In this document: positions 1,007 to 33,928 of the stretch, in pieces | How positions within the stretch are numbered: the stretch's first letter is position 1 | Layout: each line of letters begins with the position of its first letter | Origin: Schizosaccharomyces osmophilus | Taxonomy: Eukaryota; Ascomycota; Schizosaccharomycetes; Schizosaccharomycetales; Schizosaccharomycetaceae | DNA length: 64,000 bases | NCBI RefSeq assembly: GCF_027921745.1 | Contig: NC_079239.1 | Location: 2,631,501-2,695,500 of the forward strand | Direction of reading: 5' to 3' | Position numbers and translations under genes: made by a program | Notes under the pieces: generated by a model | What the model saw: only the letters and a program-made list of their open reading frames with translations | Told to the model about the DNA's origin: nothing | Database searches by the model: none

Positions 1007-2642
1007 TTAATGATGGTGGGAAGAGGTAGATGATGAAGTATCGGGAGTTTCTATAGTAGAACTCTTATTTATTTGAGAGTTGCGAATAGATGACAAAAAT
1101 CCAGAAAGTCTCGTCGAAAGTTTCTGTGGACGAGTTTGACAGTACGGATGCTGTGCCAATACGACATCAAACATATCGTCATCGGCAATAGGGTTCCACG
1201 CACTATATGTTGCCGTTTTCATCCATTCATCCAAAAAGGGTTGCCCATAGTCGGATATACAGTCAGTGGAAGGTAGAGAATTATATTTCTGCAGCTCACC
1301 TTCATCTCTAGAATGGAGAAAAGAGTAGTATTTAACGGTAGATAAAAATCCAAATATGTATGCTTCAAATCGGGCCCGTAGCCATTCATTGCTTCCTTCG
1401 TATTCCGGTAAGGATTTCTCTTCATGAGTAGAAATTACTGATAGGATATCATCCGTCCATCTTTTATCGGCTCTTGTGAGATTGACGATAGACTTGATCG
1501 AATTATCTTTGTAACAAATTTCTCCTGTATCTGCCCGAACCACAACGTCAGCCATCCTGTTTTGATTCAGCATAATGAGAGTGTTTGTAGATCCAGCAAG
1601 CCAGCTTTTCGTAGAACTCGATTCCAAAACGTGAACTTGTTGTAGAGGTGTATAAGGAGAAAACATACTCTTCTCTCCAAAAAGTAGTAACGGAAAACCA
1701 AGGTAAGCCATCAAGGAATCTTTGTCACTTGTTTTTAAAGAAGACGGCTTAGACAAAGTCGATTTGAGATAGTTTGATGACGGATCAGCAGAGTCATGTA
1801 GACTCAAAAGCATATTTGGAATCAATGATAAGAGAGAGTATTGTAAATTACCCAACCGTTCAGCAACTCGATCATAGACAAGGACTTTTTTACCTAAAAG
1901 AACAAGTTTCAACAACACTAGGGTATTTTGCTTCCAACATAAAAAAACATCTTTACTATTAACTCCTAGCGATACTTGTAATTGAGGACCTTTGTTGACT
2001 AAGCTCTTGTAAAAATCCTAAATACAACGTCGTTAGAAATCATACATAGTTTAGCAAACTCATAAAAGAATTCATACATGAAGAATGGTCAAATCAGAAA
2101 AATCGTTTTGAGAAAAGTAGGCATCGGTCACGATTTCCAAGTTGTCTTTGATGTGGCCGAATTGAGGTGTGGAACATATGAGCACAACAGCCTTTTGAAT
2201 GCTAGGCCGAGTTACATCCGAAGGAAGGTTTTTTACATGATCAATGCTTAGCTGGCGACTACAAGCCAGCCCAAAGGCTGTCGAGTGCTGTGGATTAGGG
2301 TATGGTAAAGTGAAGTATACAAAATCTTTCTCTTGCTATAAAGTAACGAGGTTAGAAAGAAAAAATATAGAATACTTCATGAAAAGACAATTGAAGTAAA
2401 ACTTACCATGTGAGCGCCATCAGGCAAACATAAAAAGGGCAGTATGGACCATTCCTTTGGTAATTCTATTGATTGCGGAAATACATGCTCGATTTCAGGG
2501 CCACGTATATGATGACTTTTCAATTGTAGTTAGAAGAGACGAAAAGGGGAATGACTGAACAAAAAATGAGCATGCTCATTGGGACTTACAAATCTACGGT
2601 AACCATGCAGTAAAAGATAGATGCAGTTATGTAATCATCCAT
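1007..2642 (-). CDS. anr2: DENN-domain protein of the Avl9/Anr2 family
   Basis: Four exons on the minus strand (2642-2590, 2515-2407, 2335-2078, 2017-1007) join in frame to a 476-residue protein. The introns of 74, 71 and 60 bp have GTAAGT/GTATGA donors. The ATG at 2642 is followed by short stretches typical of Avl9-type uDENN/DENN domains: HHIRGPEIEHVFP, SILPFLCLPDGAHM, PQHSTAFGLACSRQL, then KKVLVYD, LQYSLLSLIP and the YTPLQQV...WLAGSTN block. Avl9/Anr2 proteins act in late secretory traffic and are likely Rab regulators; that is family knowledge. The last 100 residues, after about position 370, look less conserved. The next plus-strand ORF starts only 17 bp from its ATG. S. pombe has the same neighbour pair anr2-gpa2, but here a wtf island separates them. 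Confidence 0.85.
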
Positions 2643-2659
2643 GATACGAATCTTTTTGG

Positions 2660-2893
2660 ATGGTAAACGAAAGTAGCCGCTTGCTTCGTTATGTTGTAAG
2701 AAGTCGGATGTTAGTGAAGAGTGCAAAAGACGAAACTTATGAAAAGAAAGCCCAAAAAAAGGATAATTATATGCTTCAAATAAAAAAGGATAAAGAAAAC
2801 AGAAAACATAAAACCGAAGAGCTAAATGAGAAGCAATTACTTTACGAGGATGACATCCTAGGTTGGGGAGGTTCCAAGACGTACCTGCAGTAA
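2660..2893 (+). CDS. Small basic hypothetical protein (77 aa)
   Basis: A continuous ORF starts at a true ATG, 17 bp from the divergent ATG of anr2, and ends with TAA. The product is highly charged: a Lys/Glu-rich central helix (about residues 20-58, likely coiled coil) followed by a non-repetitive tail ending DDILGWGGSKTYLQ. The N-terminus RLLRYVVRSRML is Arg-rich and could be a mitochondrial presequence; this is a guess. I do not recognise the family. The balanced composition and defined C-terminus argue for a real gene, while the minimal spacing to anr2 leaves little room for a promoter. An upstream exon overlapping anr2 cannot be excluded. Confidence 0.45.
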   Translation: MVNESSRLLRYVVRSRMLVKSAKDETYEKKAQKKDNYMLQIKKDKENRKHKTEELNEKQLLYEDDILGWGGSKTYLQ

Positions 2894-3508
2894 AGCAGGT
2901 GGTGGGACGAAAAAGAGAGAGGAGAATAGGTTATTTTAGGATTACAGAAAATATTAGCTTATTTATTTTAGAATTTATTACCCTGTGTTACTTAGTGTAA
3001 GGGAATGCTGCATGAATCTGTAAAGGAAGTGGACTGCTAAACCATTGATTGAAGAGCTCCAGAAAGAAAAGGTTGATTGTGAGCTTCTCATCATTTTTTC
3101 TTGTTTTATCATTTTCTTTTATTCGAGTTTTTTCGACTTTTCATTGCAAGTTCCTTGCTTTGTTTACTTATTACACCACGAAGTCGTTAACTTTATAAAT
3201 ATCGGCTAATATTTTCATACATGCGAATATTAATGTAATATAACTGATGGTAACGAGGGTGTTGACTTAATACTGCTTTATGAGAGACATGCAGAAAAAA
3301 CGCTACCCAGAGTTTTCAAGCAGGCATCTTTGGCTTTAACTGTCAGTTCCTTTTGACAACTTTTTGATTGAATTAAGGACACATTCTTTTTTGGCTGCTT
3401 CTTGCAAAGTGGAACCAGCTTCTGCAAACTTTCTTTGGTGAATTTATTTGTTTTCGTTCAACTTGTCACTATTGATACTTTTCTGTTTTTTGAATTGCCA
3501 TTGTAAAG
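2894..3508. other. Upstream region of first wtf copy, homologous to 6700-7332
   Basis: From about 3150 to the ATG this region resembles the stretch before the wtf gene at 7333, including the terminal TTGAATTGCCATTGTAAA and a TTTGTTTAC site at 3159-3167. It appears to be duplicated promoter and 5' leader. No other gene is seen. Confidence 0.55.
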
Positions 3509-4390
3509 ATGAAGAATGAATACACTCCTATTTCAAATTCGGAAGACTCTTCCAAAACGTTCGATGATGAAAAGTCAGAGAGTCGACCTCCTTCAAATGG
3601 CATAGCACCTCCGTACCCAGGTAAGAAACATTAAAATAGAAAGGAATGTCAGTTGCCTCGTATTACTTGAGGATGACATCGTATCTAGGTTGATGAGGCC
3701 ATCAACTATACCCTTTTCACAAAACAAAAAAATCATTCCTTATACATCTAATAGGTCCACACAAACATGTTGATTTGGAAATGGGTTGAAAAATCCCCCA
3801 GAGACAGCCATAAATCCTTCGAGGAGCCCAGAAGAGTGTCGTTGCCATTTCTGGATGTGCCTTATCTTTGCATTTAGTATAGTTCTTCTTATTCTCCTTG
3901 TTGCAGCTTTCGTTTACAAGGTCCCTGTGAATCCGAAAATTCTCTAGATTCTTTTTGGTAATTGGGATGGACCCTTGACATTGTTTGTGTTTGGTAAGAC
4001 AAGGATGTTGCTATATTTTGTAAGACTCGCTAACAACTAGCGATATTGTTTAGATTTTCGAATGGTTTCGTATAAGCTAGAAGAGGAATTAAAAGGCTTG
4101 TGTAGAATATGTGGATCGCGGGATTCTATTTGACTACTTTTGATGACGCCTTTGTTGTATATACCTCTGAACCATTCTAATTGTTTCAGGAAACCCAGAC
4201 ATGCCTCGTAGAACATAAGGTATTTTTCGATCTTTATACGCGATTTTGGTGGTATGCTTATTCTACAGATTTTTCCCTAAAGTATTTAAAGTTAACTATT
4301 TAGTATATATGGCTCCAAAAGATGACACAACTCGAAACGAAGAGATCGAACTTTACCCTTTTGCTAACCAAAGAACTGAAGTTTGTGATT
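3509..4390 (+). pseudogene. Broken wtf-family (spore-killer type) gene copy
   Basis: The start is unmistakably wtf-like: an ATG-led first exon (3509-3619) of the same design as the gene at 7333, ending in a PPYPG-type motif and a GTAAGA donor. The middle contains a degraded hydrophobic segment (about 3840-3945), and the 3' end (about 4305-4390) matches the last exon of the other copy (NEEIEL... motif). The element is broken in several places and is clearly shorter than the whole copy, so I treat it as a fossil. Together with the following 5S gene it forms a unit duplicated at 7333-9278. The age is uncertain: divergence from the sister copy is substantial, but much of the upstream and downstream sequence still aligns by eye. 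Confidence 0.75.
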
Positions 4391-5119
4391 TCATTTTTTT
4401 TATTTCGTTAGTCTTGCCGAAACTGTTGTATATCTTCATTGATTTTCGCCAATCTCAAAGGCATTGATGTTAATTACACTCCACCAAGTTCCTGTATTCG
4501 CATACGAATAGAGTCGCATACATAAAAGCAAGGATAATTTTGGTCCCAGCGTGGGTTATTTATTTGTATTTCTCATTCACTCTTTCATAAATCTTCTTAA
4601 TCGTTTCATTAAAATTTATAGCTTTTAAATGAATTCCGTTGCTACTAAATTCAAAGCGAATGCTTCATCAGTGCTCAGAACGTTGTCGATGCGTTGAGTA
4701 GAACATGCGATGAAAGTTGCCCAGCCGTATATACTTGCTTTGATTTTATTCTATGATTTGTAGAGTCACGAAGTCCAGGAATGCGACGAAAAACATTGGC
4801 ATGTAAGCATTGATTTTTGTCTCATCAAAAAGATCTCTGCTTAATAAATGTCAGTAAAAGGTATTTGTATACTGAAGACACCAAAGGTATCTGCTCGAGT
4901 CACATTCTTGTCATTCCTAGAACCGAAGATGGGACGTTCCTTTCTCATATAGTGTACAGTAGGGTTAACACATCAGTAGATTTGATTCGCGGAAGACTTG
5001 TAAACGGTGCAAATGAACAAACTTGGAGACAACACAGTCGAAGAATCGCCGATCAGAAAGTTGGTTCACACTGACAAGGAAGCTTTATATTTATATACTA
5101 TCAATCAATTATTGTACAT
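4391..5119. other. 3' flank of wtf copy leading to 5S gene
   Basis: The first 200 bp align by eye with 8420-8630 downstream of the second wtf gene (shared run around AAGTT-CTG-ATTCGCAT). The rest is AT-rich. A TATA-like stretch (TATATACTA, about 5091-5099) lies some 25 bp before the 5S gene, where fission-yeast Pol III genes often carry one. Confidence 0.5.
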
Positions 5120-5238
5120 GTCTACGGCCACACCTAGGTGAAAACACCAGTTCCCGTCCGATCACTGCAGTTAAGCGTCTGAGGGTCTCGTTAGTACTAT
5201 GGTTGGAGACAACATGGGAATCCGGGATGCTGTAGGCT
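5120..5238 (+). rRNA. 5S ribosomal RNA (copy A)
   Basis: 119 nt, nearly identical to fission-yeast 5S rRNA as I remember it, from GTCTACGGCC to GCTGTAGGCT. The internal control region is present, and a run of T follows directly as Pol III terminator. Compared with copy B at 9160 it has three internal substitutions, all C-to-T or G-to-A (AGGTG for AGGCG, GGGTCTC for GGGCCTC, CCGGGATG for CCGGGGTG). It may therefore be a variant or decaying gene. Dispersed 5S genes are normal in this genus, and association with wtf genes is known in the non-pombe species. Confidence 0.95.
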
Positions 5239-5554
5239 TTTCACTTTTTGCTTCTTTTTTCTGTTGCTCTTTTAATTGAAGCACATGGCTTTAATCGTGA
5301 TCGACATGGTCCTTTGACTTATAGCTACTAGTGATTGCAAGGAAGCAATGGTCATCCATGATTCAATAATCACTTATATTCCTTATTAGTTAGAAAATAA
5401 AAGATTCTATAAGGATCAATAATTAAAAAGTGCTTGACGAATAAATATAAGAAACAAAATGCAAAGATGAAACATAAACATAAGCAAAAGCATGCTGGAG
5501 AAAAAACAACAAGAACGGACATCATAATAAACAACGTTTTACTTTATGTATAAA
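5239..5554. other. Intergenic, 3' of 5S copy A
   Basis: The first 35 bp (CACTTTTTGCTTC.. to CTGTTGCT) match the flank of 5S copy B, so the duplicated unit extends slightly past the 5S gene. The remainder is unique AT-rich DNA. Confidence 0.5.
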
Positions 5555-6428
5555 TCAATTCCCACCGCTTTCAACATCCCTAGACTGACCCGGTTCCTGG
5601 CGTAACCCTGGAGATTGCTCAGTATGTTCAGAGGTATGTTCAGAGGACGGTTGTTTACAAGTATCATCACTACGATCGTTGAACTGGTTTTCAGGCTCTG
5701 GTGGCAAGCTGTTTAATGCGATACTATTATCATCCGTCAAGTCGTTTCTATCCGATGACATCCTGAAGCCTAGAGCACTAGTAATCACAGAAAAAATTCC
5801 AAAAAAAATCCCAGAAAAAAGCGAGGAAATCCCAGAATCAACTAGAGGAATCAATATAACTATTGAATCCACCAACACTAAAAGTACCCCATTAGTAAAC
5901 ATATCAAATTAAAATTCCACCATTTCACTTACATGAACAAACATATAGAAACATGTAGAGAGCCACGACGACAAGAACAGCTGCTATAGTAGCTTGAAAG
6001 TTTACCCGTACAGATTCTTTCATCGATTCCTTTATAAAGGGGACAAGGTATTTGTAAGAAAACCAAAAGTTTACTATGACCGAAAGAATAAAGCAAAAAC
6101 TAAGCCGAGCAGATTCATTTTCCTGTCTGCGTTGTGCTTCGGGGATTCTCACAATTTTTGCCGGCCAGAAAATTAACCACAATAATGCCGTCAAGACATT
6201 TCGTAAAGAAATAGAGAATATATTTCCTCCTGCCATGTTGGTAGACGCTTCTTGATGTCTGTTTTCTGAGTACGGAGGTGCATGACCTTTTTCCAAGTCG
6301 TCTAGATGAGAATTCAAGATTTCATTGTACCGTGGCAGTTCACCGTCAAACGTTGCAAGAGTGCCCAAGCGAGGAACGTCAGCTGAATCAGCATCTTTTA
6401 GCTTTTTGTATTTGTTTTTTTCAATCAT
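5555..6428 (-). CDS. wtf-like multi-pass membrane protein gene, looks whole (2 exons)
   Basis: Two minus-strand exons (6428-5933 and 5877-5555) flank a 55-bp intron with GTAAGT donor, TACTAAT branch site and TTTTAG acceptor; they join in frame to 272 residues. I chose the ATG at 6428, since upstream codons lack one. The N-terminus MIEKNKYKKLKDAD recalls wtf exon 1. The cytosolic head has an LPRY motif (an [LP]PxY Nedd4-ligase docking type) and DLEKGHAPPYSEN, close to the DLEKG..PPYSE block of S. pombe Wtf proteins. Four to five hydrophobic segments follow (about 80-105, 120-145, 150-170, 175-215) before a hydrophilic Ser/Glu-rich tail. It lies between two wtf-5S units but in the opposite orientation. 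Whether it encodes antidote only, a driver or something else cannot be read from sequence; a related membrane-protein family is the alternative. Confidence 0.6.
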
Positions 6429-7332
6429 TTTCTGAAATTCCTTCAAAACCTACTCAAATAGGCAGTAAACACCCAAATTCATGTCAGAACTTTCAAAAAG
6501 TAGCACACATCCGATCCGACTAACAAGCTTAATAAAATCTACTTTGTAACAACTCCAAACTACATGAATCGAGTCCACAATGGCAATGACTAGAGTTTTG
6601 CAGAGGTGAAGCTGTCATTCACCCTCTCTGACACACATACAGATAGCTAGTAAGCGTACGCTATTCTATATATATTTACAATGAATGAACAGTCCGAAAT
6701 CGCTTTTGTTTGTTTCTATCGTGTAATCAAAATAAATTAAATAAACTTGTCACTACAAACATCGTTCGTGATAGTTTGAACGTTGCTTTTCCAGGCTTCT
6801 GATGGATTTGCTGAAAGTAAGGCTACGAAAATCTAGAGTGTTCAATCCTTTTCCCTGGAATTCATTAAGCCAAAATTACGGAACCTTCCAATACAAAGAT
6901 ATGCATTTCTAATCCTGTTTTTATAATTTAAGCAAACAGCATGGTTGTTTTGCCAAATGTTCCTTTGTTTACTTTTTGTAATAAATAACGACTCTTTTGG
7001 ATTATACTATTAGGAAAATCGCAATGAAAAACCAGCGTTGGATAATCGTAACGAGGACTGTGACCAGTCAGTGACATAATCTCGCTGCTTTTATGATTGA
7101 GACATGCGAAAAGCCATTACCAAGATTTTTTCAAACTCGCATCTTTGGTTTTTAAGGGAAAAGTTGTGTTGAAAAATTTGTTTGTTTTTAACGTAAGGTC
7201 CAATTCCTTTTTTTGAAAGATCTGTGAAAACTGGAGCCAGTTCCTACGGACTTTTCTTGGTGATTAAATAGTTGATTTCGTTTAGAGGGTAAATATCGGT
7301 GCTATTTTTTGGTTTGAATTGCCATTGTAAAT
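6429..7332. other. Divergent promoter region between two wtf-type genes
   Basis: It contains TTTGTTTAC at 6964-6972 (reverse of GTAAACAAA, the core of the Mei4 FLEX site), matched at the same distance upstream of the other copy. The last 350 bp or so are homologous to the region before 3509. Confidence 0.5.
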
Positions 7333-8419
7333 ATGAAAAACAAATATACTCCTATTTCAGATTCTGATGACTCTTCCAAAACGCTCAATGATGAAAAGGT
7401 AGATAGTCAGTCGTTTCCTTCTGATGGTACGCCTCCTCCGTATTCAGGTAAGATTAGTTGAAATGGAAAGGAAAGGTTTATTCTTTGTGTTCTTGTTTGA
7501 ACGGCTCATGATGGAAGAATTATGCTTGTTTATTTGATTGTTGGGTTTGAATTCAATCACCTGGTCGATAACTGTCAACAAACAGGGCGAATACCTCTAT
7601 CCTTTTCACAAACAACGAAAGAACAGTTACTAATGCATCCATTAGCTTCAACCAAATTTATTGATCTCGAAATGGCTCCTGAAACAGAAGAAAGTTCTAA
7701 AAAGAAAAGATATCTGACGCCTCGTGAATTAGCAATTGTTTTTGCTATTTTTATTGTATATAATGTATGCTTGATTATTGCGAGGGTCATTCTTCTTGTT
7801 TATGAGATTCCGTTTAATCAGCTTGCCGTTTGGGTACTTTTTGGCGTTTGGTGCGCTCTATTTCTGTCATTGACAATTGGTAAGAAACTAATTTCAGGAT
7901 TTTTAATGACTCACTAACTATTAGTAATAACTCAAATGCCTAAAGAATGGTTCACGCAAGCTGGAAGAGCAACCAAAAACGTATTGTCAGCTATGTGTAT
8001 CTCAGTATTATGTGTGTGTTTTCTCGATGTCCTCGGTTTCACCGCGTATTATGCTGCAAAGAAGTTCACAGGATTTGAAAAGATAAACAATAATTTTTTC
8101 TATTTTGTTTGTTTTGTTAACGTTGTCTTGTTTCTTTTATTGACGAGTATGTCATACAACCTGTGAACTATTCTAACTGTTCTAGTGAATGCAAATGCGC
8201 GTGAACTATTAAGATTAGTTCTCGTCGATCTGAGAAACGGAATAGGAAACGGCATAGGAAACGCTGTGGATCGTATTTTAGGTATGTACACTTCGTAAAT
8301 GCTTGCTATCGTTAGGGCTTTAATTAACCTATTTTAAAGATACAAATCGAGGAGAGCAAGTACCTCAGAACGAAGAAATCGAACTTCAGCCTCTTGCTGA
8401 GCAAAGCGCTGAAGTTTGA
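7333..8419 (+). CDS. wtf-family meiotic-driver-type gene, looks whole (5 exons)
   Basis: Five exons (7333-7447, 7646-7879, 7925-8146, 8186-8281, 8340-8419) join in frame to 248 residues with no interruption. Introns have GTAAGA/GTATGT donors and CTAAC-type branch sites. Exon 1 encodes a hydrophilic head ending TPPPYSG, a PPxY motif of the kind that recruits Nedd4-family ligases to Wtf antidotes. The rest has four or so membrane segments, a GNGIGN repeat-like stretch in exon 4 and an acidic tail (QNEEIELQPL). Family knowledge: wtf genes make a long antidote from exon 1 and a shorter poison from a start inside intron 1. Here an ATG at 7633-7635, within the 198-bp intron 1, is in frame with exon 2, and a FLEX-like GTCAACAAACA lies at 7574. 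Activity is not proven by sequence. A 5S gene follows, as reported for wtf loci of the S. octosporus group. Confidence 0.8.
7574..7584 (+). promoter_or_regulatory. FLEX-like site in wtf intron 1
   Basis: GTCAACAAACA differs at one base from the Mei4-binding FLEX core GTAAACAAACA. In known wtf drivers a FLEX site in intron 1 drives the meiotic short transcript. The position fits, but the mismatch makes it tentative. Confidence 0.35.
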
Positions 8420-9159
8420 GTTTGAGTTATACCGAACCTGCTTTCATTCTTTATATTTCGCATCTTCTTTGGAAGCATCCATGTCAATTGCAGTCCATCA
8501 AGTTTCTGCATTCGCATCCACCAAAGTAAGCATTATCTTAATATGATAGCTTTAATTGCTTTTCTTATTCGCTCTTTCATGAATCTGTTGATTCGTTTCA
8601 CAGCATCGCTGTTTACGCATTGTTCATCTTCTTCGTGAATAGAACACCCTTTTTAATGATTATTTAATTATTCCGACGAAAACTCCATCGCAATTAATTA
8701 TTGTTTAGCTCAACACCGAGTCGTGTAATTGCATGTCTTATAATTGGCAAGGACGAAAGTGAGTTTCAACAGTAATTATTTTCATTCAGTATAGTAAGCA
8801 CAAATCTTCAGATCGAAAGATTCGACAGGTGTAGTTTAATTAATTAAATTATCGTTTATTTAGAGAGTCAAGTCAACGGACCATGAAAAATGTATAAGTA
8901 GAACCGATTTATATTAAGTAACATTTTCAACCCATAAACTCAAACACTCAATCTCATGCTTCTGCGACCACAATGTGAATCAATAGAAAAGAGAAAACTG
9001 CGTGTTTTCAAATCTTATTCTTATAATATGAAAGCATTCACCATTTAGCCGTGAAAAATACCAGATAGAACTGAGTTGAATTGGATCTTGTAGTTCATCA
9101 AGCCAAATAAAAGACTGGATTATTTTTGTAATAAATTATCTTTACAGACCATGACAAAC
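8420..9159. other. 3' flank of wtf gene leading to 5S gene
   Basis: Partly homologous to 4391-4620. Beyond that it is AT-rich, and I see no gene. An ATAAATT stretch lies 20-30 bp before the 5S gene. Confidence 0.5.
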
Positions 9160-9278
9160 GTCTACGGCCACACCTAGGCGAAAACACCAGTTCCCGTCCG
9201 ATCACTGCAGTTAAGCGTCTGAGGGCCTCGTTAGTACTATGGTTGGAGACAACATGGGAATCCGGGGTGCTGTAGGCT
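9160..9278 (+). rRNA. 5S ribosomal RNA (copy B)
   Basis: 119 nt, matching the fission-yeast 5S consensus through the internal control region. Unlike copy A it keeps AGGCG, GGGCCTC and CCGGGGTG. A run of six T lies about 20 bp beyond the gene, in TACTTTTTTGCTTC, and can terminate Pol III. The same T-rich tail also follows copy A, so gene and flank were copied together. Confidence 0.97.
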
Positions 9279-10549
9279 CCTACATTCTTAAATTTACTTT
9301 TTTGCTTCTCTTTTCTGTTGCTGACGTTGGCTATTCACTTCACTTGACAAGATTGTACTAGCGTTTCTCTGTGTTTGCTGGACATGCAACTGACTTTTTT
9401 CATTTTGTTTACATTTCACTGATGATCAAACCGCCGTTATTACAATAGTTATTACAAAGGAGCACTGTACGTTTATATTAGAAGAGCTTACCCATATACA
9501 TAAACTTAAAGAATTGTCGCAATAATACTTTTGTAAACAAACCATTTGAAACACACTGGTTATCATTCCATCCTTCAGCTAGAAGCATTCCTGCTAGCCA
9601 AAGATAGCTGTCAGTTTACTGTTGATTAGATCTGACGAAATAGGGTTGTTGTTTAACTATTTCAATTCGTAAACCAGGCTTATGAATTTAGCAGTTGAGT
9701 GTCATGCAGAAACGTTTCGAGTAGAATTTTTATTTATTTGCTTATTTATTTTTCTTTTATTTATCCTTTATTTTTTTATTTTTATTTTTATTTTTATTTA
9801 TTTATTTATTTTTATTTTCTATTTCTATTTTTTTTTGTTTGCAGATATTACCCATATTATCTAGAGCATAGTTCGAAAAAAGAAACCATTCGTTCTTTTT
9901 ATAATCACCTGGATATATTCCTTAAATTCTCTTTTCTTGTTGTTGATTTCTATTCTACGTCTCACCACACTTTTTCCATCACAGACGAGTCTGATTCTAA
10001 TGGACACCCAAGTGGGTAGACAGATACCCCAATGGGTAGGCATCGGCGAGTCGTCGTCGAATGCTGGTATCCATTCTCGTTCTCGTTTTCGTTTTTTTTC
10101 TTTTTTTTTTTTTTTCTTTTTATCAATTTATGTTTCATTAATTCTCTCCTCAATACTTCCACTCAACGCCCTGCCCTGCCCTGCCCTTTGACCTTTCTAC
10201 TCCGTGCCCTCCACCTCACCTCAACCTTCCTTTCAACTTGCGTCCACCACTTCGATCTCCTACCCCCACCAGTCTTTCCCTAGAATCCCCCACTCAATCA
10301 TTCATACCATTCGACTTGGATCTTGTTACCTAATCGATGACCCCCACGCGGCCTTTTTGCTTCCACTTTTCGATACTTCTTCGCTACTTGTTCCTCAATT
10401 GCCTGGTTCTGGACCGAAATCAAACCCTAAACAAACGAACCTTTATCTTTTATTGGATGCCTTACCCTTCCTCTGTTTCTTACTCTGTTGGAAAATACCC
10501 CTCTTTCCATGAACCCCTCTTCTAAATATTTTCCGGCAATGAAAAAGTC
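9279..10549. other. Intergenic DNA with T-rich low-complexity tract
   Basis: A stretch of TTTA/TTTTA-type repeats runs about 9726-9836, and a poly-T block lies near 10097-10120. Long ORFs here encode only Phe/Tyr-rich or Pro/Leu-rich low-complexity peptides, so I call none of them. Confidence 0.55.
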
Positions 10550-11362: not shown

Positions 11363-12694
11363 ATGGTCATGATTGGTACTCTGTCCACGGACGGAGATTC
11401 ACGAAAAGTCAGTCATAAGATTGAAAAACAAATTGAGGCTCAACATTTAAAAAATCGCAAAACATACAAAATTCTGTTATTAGGTAAGTCCAACAAACAA
11501 ATCTCCCCTTTCAGCCAGTCTATGCAAACTCGCCTCAGCGTCGTCTTCCCATAGCGCTTACAGATGTGGTATGGAATGTTGAATACAAGCAACATCAACG
11601 ATCCTTCCATCCAATGTTTGCAATTGCGAAATCGGAGATGGAATGGTTTGTAAGGATTGTTTTTGTTTTCCCCCTCTCCATACCACTCGCTGACCTGGGT
11701 GAAAATCGCTTTCTGGGTTGATCATATGAATTTGTCACTAACCCGAATAGGTGCTTCTGATAGCGGAAAAAGTACTGTAAGCAAACAAATTAAAATTTTA
11801 AACGCAAATGGTTTTAACCAGGAAGAAATCATGTCATTTATTCCTGTTGTCCGGCGGAATTTACTGGATTCGGCAAAAATGCTCATGAGGTTCGTTGGGA
11901 ACGAAGAGGTTCCCTTAGATCCATTAAACATTCATAATTGTGAAATCGTTGAACGATTTATTCCCAATCCCGGTGAGCTTGTCTCTACGGTTTTCGGAAA
12001 AGCCATTTTCGACCTATGGTCCGTCAGCAATATCCGAAGGTGCATGTATAGAAACGATTCTGTTCTTATTGATTCTGCTCCTTACTTCTTTCAACGTGCA
12101 AATGACATCTGTAGTCCAGACTACGTACCGTCCATCGATGACATTTTGCATTCCCGAAATTCCACAATGGGGATCTCTGAAATTTCTTTTTCCTTAAACC
12201 ATTTACAAATCCGTATGTTCGACGTCGGTGGACAACGGACCGAGCGGAGGAAATGGATTTACTGCTTTGAAAACGTCAATTCTATTATTTTTTGTGTTTC
12301 CCTCAATGATTTCGATAAAAAGCTCTATGAACGAAATGTCGCTGACCGGAACCGGTTGCTTGAAAGTGTTGCTCTTTTTGATTCCATTATCAATAGCCAA
12401 TGGTTTGTTGAGTCTTCCATCATTCTCTTTTTAAATAAGTTTGATTTGTTTCGAAAAAAGTTGGAATATGTTTCATTTACCGACCATTTCCCTCAATACT
12501 CTGGCAAAACCAATGTGAAAGGCGTTACAAAGTTTATTCTTTGGATGTTTGTGAATCCCAGCGTCAACCGACTTAGGCATAATATTTACCCTCACATAAC
12601 TACTGCCGTTGACACTTCCAATATTAAAGTTGTTTTTGCTGCTGTAACAGAAACAATTTTACAACATAGCTTGAAGGAAGTCGGAATGTTCTAG
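11363..12694 (+). CDS. gpa2: Heterotrimeric G protein alpha subunit Gpa2
   Basis: Two exons (11363-11483 and 11751-12694) joined across a 267-bp intron encode 354 residues, the length I recall for S. pombe Gpa2. The intron splits the glycine of the P-loop region; exon 2 begins ASDSGKST. Visible G-alpha motifs: P-loop GASDSGKST (about 41-49), switch I region SRNST, switch II DVGGQRTERRKW, the NKFD guanine-specificity motif, and the C-terminal helix ending KEVGMF. The N-terminus (MVMIGTLSTDG) lacks the usual MGxxxS myristoylation signal. Gpa2 activates adenylate cyclase in response to glucose; that is family knowledge. The upstream region has a CRE/TATA promoter and a very long leader. Gpa1, the pheromone subunit, is the alternative, but its longer N-terminus is absent. 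Confidence 0.93.
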
Positions 12695-19196: not shown

Positions 19197-20018
19197 AAAT
19201 ACAGTGTAAGCGCTTTTTATATTGGATTTAGTCAAGTGAAGTCAACTAAATTTTTCAAACTGAAGTCTCGCGCTGTGCTCTCTTCTTTTCATCTTTTAGT
19301 CATTTTATCTAATTTTTATTTTTATTTTTATATTTATTTTTTTTCACATTAAAACACATCAAGCGCGATTGTTTGTTTACCTCTTTTTCACAGAGAAGTT
19401 TTGCTTCCTCTCTGTTTCCTTCGATCACGACATCCGCGTCGGGTATTGTGCTAGACCCTTTCCGTCGATGAACGTGTCTGAGAGATTCCCGCGGGAATCT
19501 TATCAAATGTTGCTGACTTTGAATTTTTCTATTGGAAAATCAAAGAACATAAACCTCGATAGAATTGTTAATGTTATTTTAAATTTTGTTATTATTAGTA
19601 ATGAAAAATCTGTAGAAATCGGAGGCAAAGAACTCTCGCAGAGCACACCACTACCAACAATAAAAGTTCATAAAATTCAATTTTGTGGATTCTTTTTTGT
19701 TAATTTAGATTGCAATTGTTTATTGGAATTTCTAATCTGATTTTAGAAATTGTGTGAAATTTGATTGCGGTATCGTATATCAAATCTACGAAAAATTGCC
19801 TTTGGTTCGACCTTCTTACCCGAACCGAATCACAACCAACTTCCCTAAAACGTAAAAGTTGCTTCAACCGCAAACTTTTCGATTGAACGATTTTTAGGGA
19901 ATACGCGTCTTTATTTGGCTTCAACAGTCTTGTTTACGCTCTCTAGAATTTTTATTTAGAAAAGATTCTTTGATTACTGAAATAAAAGGCAGCTCTCCAC
20001 TTTTCGATTGCAAAAAAA
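19197..20018. other. Intergenic region and gly1 5' flank
   Basis: Includes the tRNA TATA element and an AT-rich stretch. ORF 19369-19740 has no recognisable features and probably lies in leader sequence. No gene is called. Confidence 0.5.
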
Positions 20019-32377: not shown

Positions 32378-33928
32378 CTAAGAGGTTTGGATATGATTAG
32401 CTAAACCTCGCAATTGTCTTCTAAAACGAAGGAGTGTAGGAATGACATTTCCATCCTCAATTGGCTGTTGATAATAATATTGTAAAAAGGTATTCAAAGC
32501 AGACAAAGCCTCACTTGGAGGCACATAAACACCTCTTTCATCCTCTTCGTCTGTTTCTTGGTCTCTCTCCGGTAAAAATTGCGAGGCTACCTGGTTGACA
32601 ACATCCTCTTTACTGTCGACGACCTCTTCCTCAGCCGGCATTAAATATTCCTCGATTGAGCACATTGGTGGAGGGCAAATTCTCGGTAAAATATTTTCAA
32701 TTTCAGCAATTAGACTGTAAGGAATAACTCGTTTTGGTTTTCCGTTAGTTACAAAAATGCCTGAACGCTGGAAACAGGTGATAATATCTTCGTTTGAAAT
32801 ATCGACGTGCCAAGATTCTATAATCCACTGAAGAGCTTTATAAACAGTAACAGTTTTAAGAGGGTCTTTTTTGGCTTGCATTTCAGTGTACATGTATCTT
32901 GCCCATCGCAGCCGATAGTGTGTTTTAAAGGTCTCCATTATACCACAATCAAATGGATGCGTAATATTTCTAGATTCTGATGATAGAAATGCAACTTTTA
33001 CATGCTTTAAGCTATTGTTGGCATTTCTGATAGCTTCTAAAGCGCATTCATGAGGGGAAAGGTTGTCAAGCAAAAGTAAGACCTTACGACCTTTCATTTT
33101 TTCATCAAACCAGCGTAGCCATTCCTCCATAAGAGAATTAGTAACCCATGCAGTACCATTGGACCGCCATTGCACGTTCATAGCCTCTGGATAAACGTTT
33201 GTCAATCGAAAGGCTTTTGGACGTTTCGAATAGCCAACAACCCAAAGCGGTAAACGTTCTGAAGCATCGGCATTGCAACATAAAGTTATTGTGAATCTAG
33301 CTCGGTAACGCTGGATGCCTAGGACGTTTTCGATAGAAATAGACTTTTGAGGAGTGAGCTTCCAAAAGAGACTGCCCTCGTCCATTACAAAAATATCACT
33401 CGGAGTATAATGCTTGGTAACTTCTTGAATGGGAATTTTGCTGGTGTTGATTACGTCGGCCATTAATGGATCAGGTTCCTTATAAAACTCTGACAATGGG
33501 TGTCTCCTCTTAAACTTCTCTAGCCAGCCATTACTGAAAGACGGAGTTGGGATATTTTGATACTCTGGAATAGTTTTCCAAATATCCAAAGCGGCCAACC
33601 GTAACTGGTCGCAACTAACGGTGCCAGATCGCTTTTCCTCTTGTTGTTGCCATTCGAACAACGCTGACTCCAACGCCGGATATTTTGGTGTACGATTCCG
33701 CTTCAGGTCTCCTCGAATAAAATCTTGACTGTCTAAATATGCATGTTTAGAAGATAAAATTGTTGACACTGTTGACTGAGCAAGTGTTCGACCAAAATGT
33801 TCTTGAAACCAGTCGATAAGATCTTTTTGCGTCGGCTTCTCTGTAAGGCTAAAATAATAATCGCGAAATGCCTTCTTTTCGTCCTGCGTAAGACCCTGTC
33901 TTCGAATTGCCTTTGCTTCCCTTGACAT
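32378..33928 (-). CDS. CENP-B homologue (domesticated pogo-type transposase, Abp1/Cbh family)
   Basis: Single exon, 516 residues from the ATG at 33928 (MSREAKAIRR); the frame is open upstream without ATG. Two N-terminal helix-turn-helix units (about 1-70 and 75-140, the second ending NGWLEKFKRRHPL) form the CENP-B DNA-binding region. The DDE core follows (about 175-420). The three acidic positions of pogo enzymes are all present: VMDEGSLFW (D183), LLLDNLSPH (D288) and HPFDCGIMETFK (D327). S. pombe Abp1, as I remember it, has lost them. The acidic tail (440-490) and C-terminal helices fit the dimerisation region. S. pombe CENP-B homologues bind centromeres and silence Tf retrotransposons. S. 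pombe has no such gene between npr2 and ini1, so this is a relocated or extra family member; which of Abp1, Cbh1 or Cbh2 it corresponds to is unclear. Confidence 0.88.
   Translation of the reverse strand: MSREAKAIRRQGLTQDEKKAFRDYYFSLTEKPTQKDLIDWFQEHFGRTLAQSTVSTILSSKHAYLDSQDFIRGDLKRNRTPKYPALESALFEWQQQEEKRSGTVSCDQLRLAALDIWKTIPEYQNIPTPSFSNGWLEKFKRRHPLSEFYKEPDPLMADVINTSKIPIQEVTKHYTPSDIFVMDEGSLFWKLTPQKSISIENVLGIQRYRARFTITLCCNADASERLPLWVVGYSKRPKAFRLTNVYPEAMNVQWRSNGTAWVTNSLMEEWLRWFDEKMKGRKVLLLLDNLSPHECALEAIRNANNSLKHVKVAFLSSESRNITHPFDCGIMETFKTHYRLRWARYMYTEMQAKKDPLKTVTVYKALQWIIESWHVDISNEDIITCFQRSGIFVTNGKPKRVIPYSLIAEIENILPRICPPPMCSIEEYLMPAEEEVVDSKEDVVNQVASQFLPERDQETDEEDERGVYVPPSEALSALNTFLQYYYQQPIEDGNVIPTLLRFRRQLRGLANHIQTS

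Follow-up and report, generated by a model that had tools for sequence, protein, structure and literature searches.

The wtf genes of the S. octosporus group are closely connected with dispersed 5S rRNA genes. This association was reported for 72 of the 83 wtf genes of S. octosporus, 33 of the 42 of S. osmophilus and two of the five of S. cryophilus, and units of the wtf-5S and 5S-wag-wtf types were named, in which the wag gene lies between wtf and the upstream 5S gene and is divergent from wtf (PMC9562144). Either gene conversion or the integration of circles at 5S genes was proposed as the route of spread. At five of six sites where wtf is present only in S. octosporus, the relatives keep a 5S gene (PMC9562144). 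In addition, two S. osmophilus strains differ in wtf31, which one of them lacks, probably by way of the tandem 5S genes which flank it (PMC10085805). The connection of wtf with 5S genes, its spread by way of these genes and an instance of presence/absence are thus already published. In S. pombe, wtf copies are associated with Tf LTRs instead of 5S genes and, according to the comparative passages of PMC9562144, wag is absent.

The locus presented here lies in a window of 64,000 nucleotides (the whole stretch of DNA analysed). It is almost certainly a wtf-5S rDNA locus of the clade formed by S. octosporus, S. osmophilus, S. cryophilus and S. lindneri, in which an old, decayed wtf-5S unit is followed by a 5S-wag-wtf-5S unit with one intact wtf gene. 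The locus and its nearest neighbours contain the following features:

1007-1813, minus strand: Avl9-family open reading frame of the left flank, called anr2 in the preliminary description (Pfam PF09794, E 9.1e-49)
3273-3508, plus strand: promoter region of wtf copy 1, homologous to 7085-7332
3509-4386, plus strand: wtf copy 1, a decayed relic with broken later exons and an exon-5-like tail
5120-5238, plus strand: 5S rRNA gene 1 (RF00001, 102.6 bits, model positions 1-120)
5555-6428, minus strand: wag-like gene, exons 6428-5933 and 5877-5555, 272 codons, 55-nt intron, spliced frame open
7085-7332, plus strand: promoter region of wtf copy 2, homologous to 3273-3508
7333-8419, plus strand: wtf copy 2, intact, spliced frame open, GT-AG introns
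7574-7584, plus strand: FLEX-like site (one mismatch) in wtf copy 2, intron 1, 3' end
9160-9278, plus strand: 5S rRNA gene 2 (RF00001, 105.6 bits, model positions 1-120)
11726-12694, plus strand: G-protein alpha subunit open reading frame of the right flank, called gpa2 in the preliminary description (Pfam PF00503, E 7.9e-99)

To the right of the G-alpha gene follow, in this order, Mit_KHE1, SKN1/KRE6, SWIRM, beta-eliminating-lyase (threonine aldolase-like), WD40, adaptin, WD40 and NPR2 genes, a gene order which we take to be that of the SPAC23H3 series of S. pombe. In that species anr2 and gpa2 are presumably adjacent.

The anatomy of the locus is that of the published units, and in the description of these units in PMC9562144 we see no clear difference from it. 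Common to both are the five-exon wtf gene whose exon 2 contains an in-frame ATG, the 5S genes located on the same strand, the divergent wag between 5S and wtf, and the occurrence of pseudogenes among the copies. Both 5S genes are full-length matches to RF00001, well above the gathering score of 38, and they are identical at 116 of 119 positions. They are directly oriented and flank the wag-like gene together with wtf copy 2, which is the form predicted by the published model of 5S spread. In this respect the locus resembles S. osmophilus wtf31, where a wtf gene flanked by tandem 5S genes permits its loss or gain through 5S recombination, although polymorphism between two strains was recorded for wtf31 while the present locus is known from one sequence (PMC10085805). 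The preliminary description had connected the locus with the dispersed 5S genes of the S. octosporus group, which agrees with both the anatomy and PMC9562144. It had also proposed to look for presence/absence polymorphism with 5S genes at the junctions, a test already made on sister loci, since the wtf31 and five-of-six-site results are in print.

A T-rich tail is common to the two 5S genes (5239-5268 and 9279-9322, plus strand); 14 extra bases separate 5S gene 2 from it and shift its first T run downstream. Upstream of wtf copy 1, the stretch 2840-2910 resembles 5S by eye, but a 5S relic there was rejected: an Rfam search of 2600-3200 with E up to 10 gave no 5S and a single unrelated snoRNA match (E 9.6), and the local 5S score of 2840-2910 is 21, lower than the 35 reached at the highest-scoring other site of the window once the two genuine 5S genes were masked. 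Farther along the window, an open reading frame at 32378-33928 on the minus strand carries HTH_ABP1_N (the N-terminal domain of fission-yeast Abp1/CENP-B type), Tc5-type DNA-binding and DDE_1 domains; judged by these domains, it is a CENP-B-like, transposase-derived gene. Proteins of this kind are discussed as binders of 5S genes and LTRs (PMC9562144).

The preliminary description did not distinguish a decayed from an open wtf copy. In wtf copy 2, 268 open codons extend over five exons (7333-7447, 7586-7879, 7925-8146, 8186-8281 and 8340-8419). Its sole [L/P]PxY motif is PPPY at residues 34-37, encoded by exon 1, and an in-frame ATG is codon 55, at base 48 of exon 2; in S. octosporus wtf25 the corresponding ATG is at base 27 (PMC11892871). 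Exon 4 encodes IGN-type repeats (NGIGNGIGN), and a crude scale places hydrophobic segments at approximately residues 84-142, 152-181 and 190-215. When the exon-4 repeat of wtf25 (28 letters as printed, called 30 in the text of PMC11892871) was sought throughout the 64 kb, the best place was exon 4 of copy 2, with a 13-base exact piece and a score of 26, the second-best place having 22. Against the assignment of copy 2 to wtf, its exon 4 had no match to the S. pombe-type wtf4 repeat (score 12 versus 20 elsewhere in the window), and Pfam, with E up to 10, gave no wtf family match for copy 2 or for the wag-like protein. A FLEX-like site as good as that of copy 2 intron 1 occurred in 40 of 5000 shuffles of the intron, so the probability of a chance occurrence is not negligible; a confident intron-1 FLEX is reported for 20 of 48 intact S. 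octosporus wtf genes and for none of 31 in S. osmophilus (PMC9562144). In the window as a whole, nine sites are within one mismatch of the FLEX 11-mer GTAAACAAACA versus 2.8 expected, and none of 100 shuffles reaches nine; the sole perfect copy is at 19370-19380 on the minus strand.

The exon structure, PY motif, internal ATG, exon-4 repeats and hydrophobic segments of copy 2 are as described for wtf in S. octosporus, S. osmophilus and S. cryophilus (PMC9562144, PMC10721834, PMC11892871), and we predict that this gene is probably a poison-antidote driver, or else a suppressor. Judging by the studied relatives, a long transcript starting upstream of exon 1 would encode the antidote carrying the PY motif, and a short transcript starting in intron 1 would encode the poison, which begins in exon 2. 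The antidote would be ubiquitinated via its PY motif, bind the poison and carry it to the endosome and vacuole, while the poison would kill the spores that lack the gene. In the S. pombe wtf drivers, the production of poison and antidote by one gene and the dependence of the antidote on the PY motif are described (PMC10721834, PMC11892871), whereas here they are predicted; multi-pass membrane proteins are common to both.

Copy 1, by contrast with the open copy 2, is a relic. Its exon 1 comprises 38 open codons from the ATG at 3509, and past this exon stops occur in all three plus-strand frames. Relative to copy 2, 113 of the 222 bases of exon 3 and 34 of the 96 bases of exon 4 are unpaired, and tblastn detects only pieces in changing frames: an exon 1-like piece, an exon 2-like piece with a stop and, weakly, an exon 5-like piece (E 0.10). 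Between the relic and 5S gene 1, within spacer DNA non-homologous between the units, an open stretch of 86 codons is located at 4814-5071 on the plus strand; its interpretation as a captured gene fragment was rejected (best E 0.12 in Pfam and 1.4 among PDB sequences).

The two plus-strand units, each consisting of wtf and then 5S, were recognised in the preliminary description, and its distances of about 1.6 and 1.8 kb from ATG to 5S agree with the 1611 bp (copy 1) and 1827 bp (copy 2) measured. Their description as repeats is correct in part. The units match at 279 of 390 positions (72%) over 3273-3646 and 7085-7473 (blastn, E 1e-44), and MAFFT gives 67% for the 5' part of copy 1 against copy 2. 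Shorter collinear patches of homology continue as far as 4608/8600. The 5S match, interrupted by the 14-base gap, runs on to 5268/9322, some 30 bp beyond the gene; about 35 bp had been proposed. The significance of homology was judged by dinucleotide shuffles, 200 per region pair. Upstream homology had been placed from 2894 on, but detectable homology begins only at about 3273: 2894-3150 has no detectable homology to 6690-6950 (149 of 200 shuffles as good), and it is not significant for the upstream stretch from 2641-2893 (149 of 200) or for 3100-3272 versus 6900-7084 (27 of 200). An 18-base match with a FLEX-like core is collinear upstream of both wtf genes (3155-3172 and 6960-6977, plus strand), but by itself it is not significant (27 of 200 shuffles as good). 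Over about 500 bp before the 5S genes, 4614-5119 and 8606-9159, there is no detectable homology either (115 of 200). Because of these non-aligning stretches, the units do not repeat each other over their whole length, and end-to-end repetition does not explain their similar ATG-to-5S spacing. The absence of any alignment beyond the 5S genes, named beforehand as an outcome that would contradict the proposal, was not observed, although the alignment is only partial.

With 72% identity in the promoter and exon 1 and about 500 bp that do not align, the units are less alike than those of a single type, which PMC9562144 calls "highly similar". This greater divergence fits, but does not prove, a putative origin from two different unit types. 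In S. octosporus, 11 of the 14 intact wag-associated wtf genes fall into one clade (PMC9562144), therefore wag-associated and wag-less copies need not be close.

We suggest that the copies arrived by recombination between dispersed 5S genes and that copy 1 decayed afterwards; a single crossover between the direct 5S repeats could remove the wag-wtf copy 2 unit. The lack of a 5S relic upstream of copy 1 counts against this interpretation. It is somewhat unlikely that the locus is instead an old one, present throughout the clade at the same site, which decayed and diverged in place without recent 5S spread. The low identity of the units (72% at best outside 5S) and the broken copy 1 correspond to such a history, as do the 26 loci at which S. 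octosporus and S. osmophilus are syntenic, but species-specific loci are also numerous (31, 12 and 2; PMC9562144). It is unlikely that, in place of two 5S-borne arrivals, unequal crossing over duplicated one wag-wtf-5S unit locally in tandem. Such a duplication would account for the common order, strand and similar ATG-to-5S distance of the units and for the collinearity of the homology patches, but not for the lack of detectable homology upstream of about 3270 and in 4614-5119; moreover, no wag relic was found beside copy 1 when 2600-3300 was searched with the wag-like protein (tblastn, up to E 10).

The gene on the minus strand between 5S gene 1 and wtf copy 2, divergent from the latter, had been described preliminarily as a third, oppositely oriented wtf-like gene. 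Its orientation is confirmed and its 5' end is indeed wtf-like, but its body is not, and by position and orientation we consider wag a better assignment for it than a third wtf. That it is itself a wtf gene is very unlikely: it shares with copy 2, in the same order, the motifs KNKY (close to the start) and PPYS (in the tail) (at least two 4-mers are shared in 73 of 20,000 shuffles of its tail), and the DNA of its coding start matches the end of copy 1 exon 1 (score 16, reached by 0 of 2076 window ATGs), but it has two exons versus five in wtf, its whole-length alignment score with copy 2 is reached by 19 of 500 shuffles, hhalign found no homology to the membrane parts of copy 2 (probability 1.2%, no better than 6.4% for an unrelated window protein and 1.7% for a shuffle), and the published gene at such a position is wag (PMC9562144).

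The resemblance of this wag-like gene to wtf is concentrated in its 5' part. The alignment of its tail to copy 2 is matched by 3 to 11 of 2000 shuffles, depending on the gap cost; for copy 1 the corresponding range is 26 to 81 of 2000. The protein has one [L/P]PxY motif, LPRY at residues 31-34, such as 540 of 20,000 shuffled tails also hold. The coding start scores an ordinary 11 against exon 1 of copy 2 (370 of 2076 ATGs), while the upstream region has a match in copy 2 (28 of 2076 ATGs as good) but none in copy 1 (477 of 2076). None of the 2076 ATGs reaches the joint 5' score, nor does any of 24 ORF starts, which were picked by hand from 31 ORFs; among these 24, single upstream scores are up to 18.5, above the 16 of the wag-like gene. 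These tests overstate the case, since they were chosen after the sequence had been seen. Possibly, the wag-like gene has a 5' end in common with wtf, acquired by descent or exchange. Among the wag passages listed for PMC9562144, the sole publication that we found for this gene name, we saw no mention of such a similarity.

One may go further and suppose that wag has a promoter and N-terminal tail shared with wtf, and that its product is a PY-tailed membrane protein which would follow the same ubiquitin route and modulate the Wtf poison or antidote. According to this supposition, which we regard as rather doubtful, the selfish unit would have wag as its second product, transcribed divergently from wtf.

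Among the publications listed we found no description of this locus, and among those listed for S. lindneri and genome assembly no new wtf catalogue. The locus is a real and well-formed case of the published arrangement, ordinary for its clade, and only the small clue at the 5' end of the wag-like gene is new. It exemplifies how, according to the published model, spore killers increase in number at dispersed 5S genes and later degenerate on the spot. Owing to the direct 5S repeats, isolates can easily be examined for loss of the wag-wtf unit. Should the published wag copies show the same 5' similarity throughout, this companion gene would no longer be a bystander of the selfish unit.
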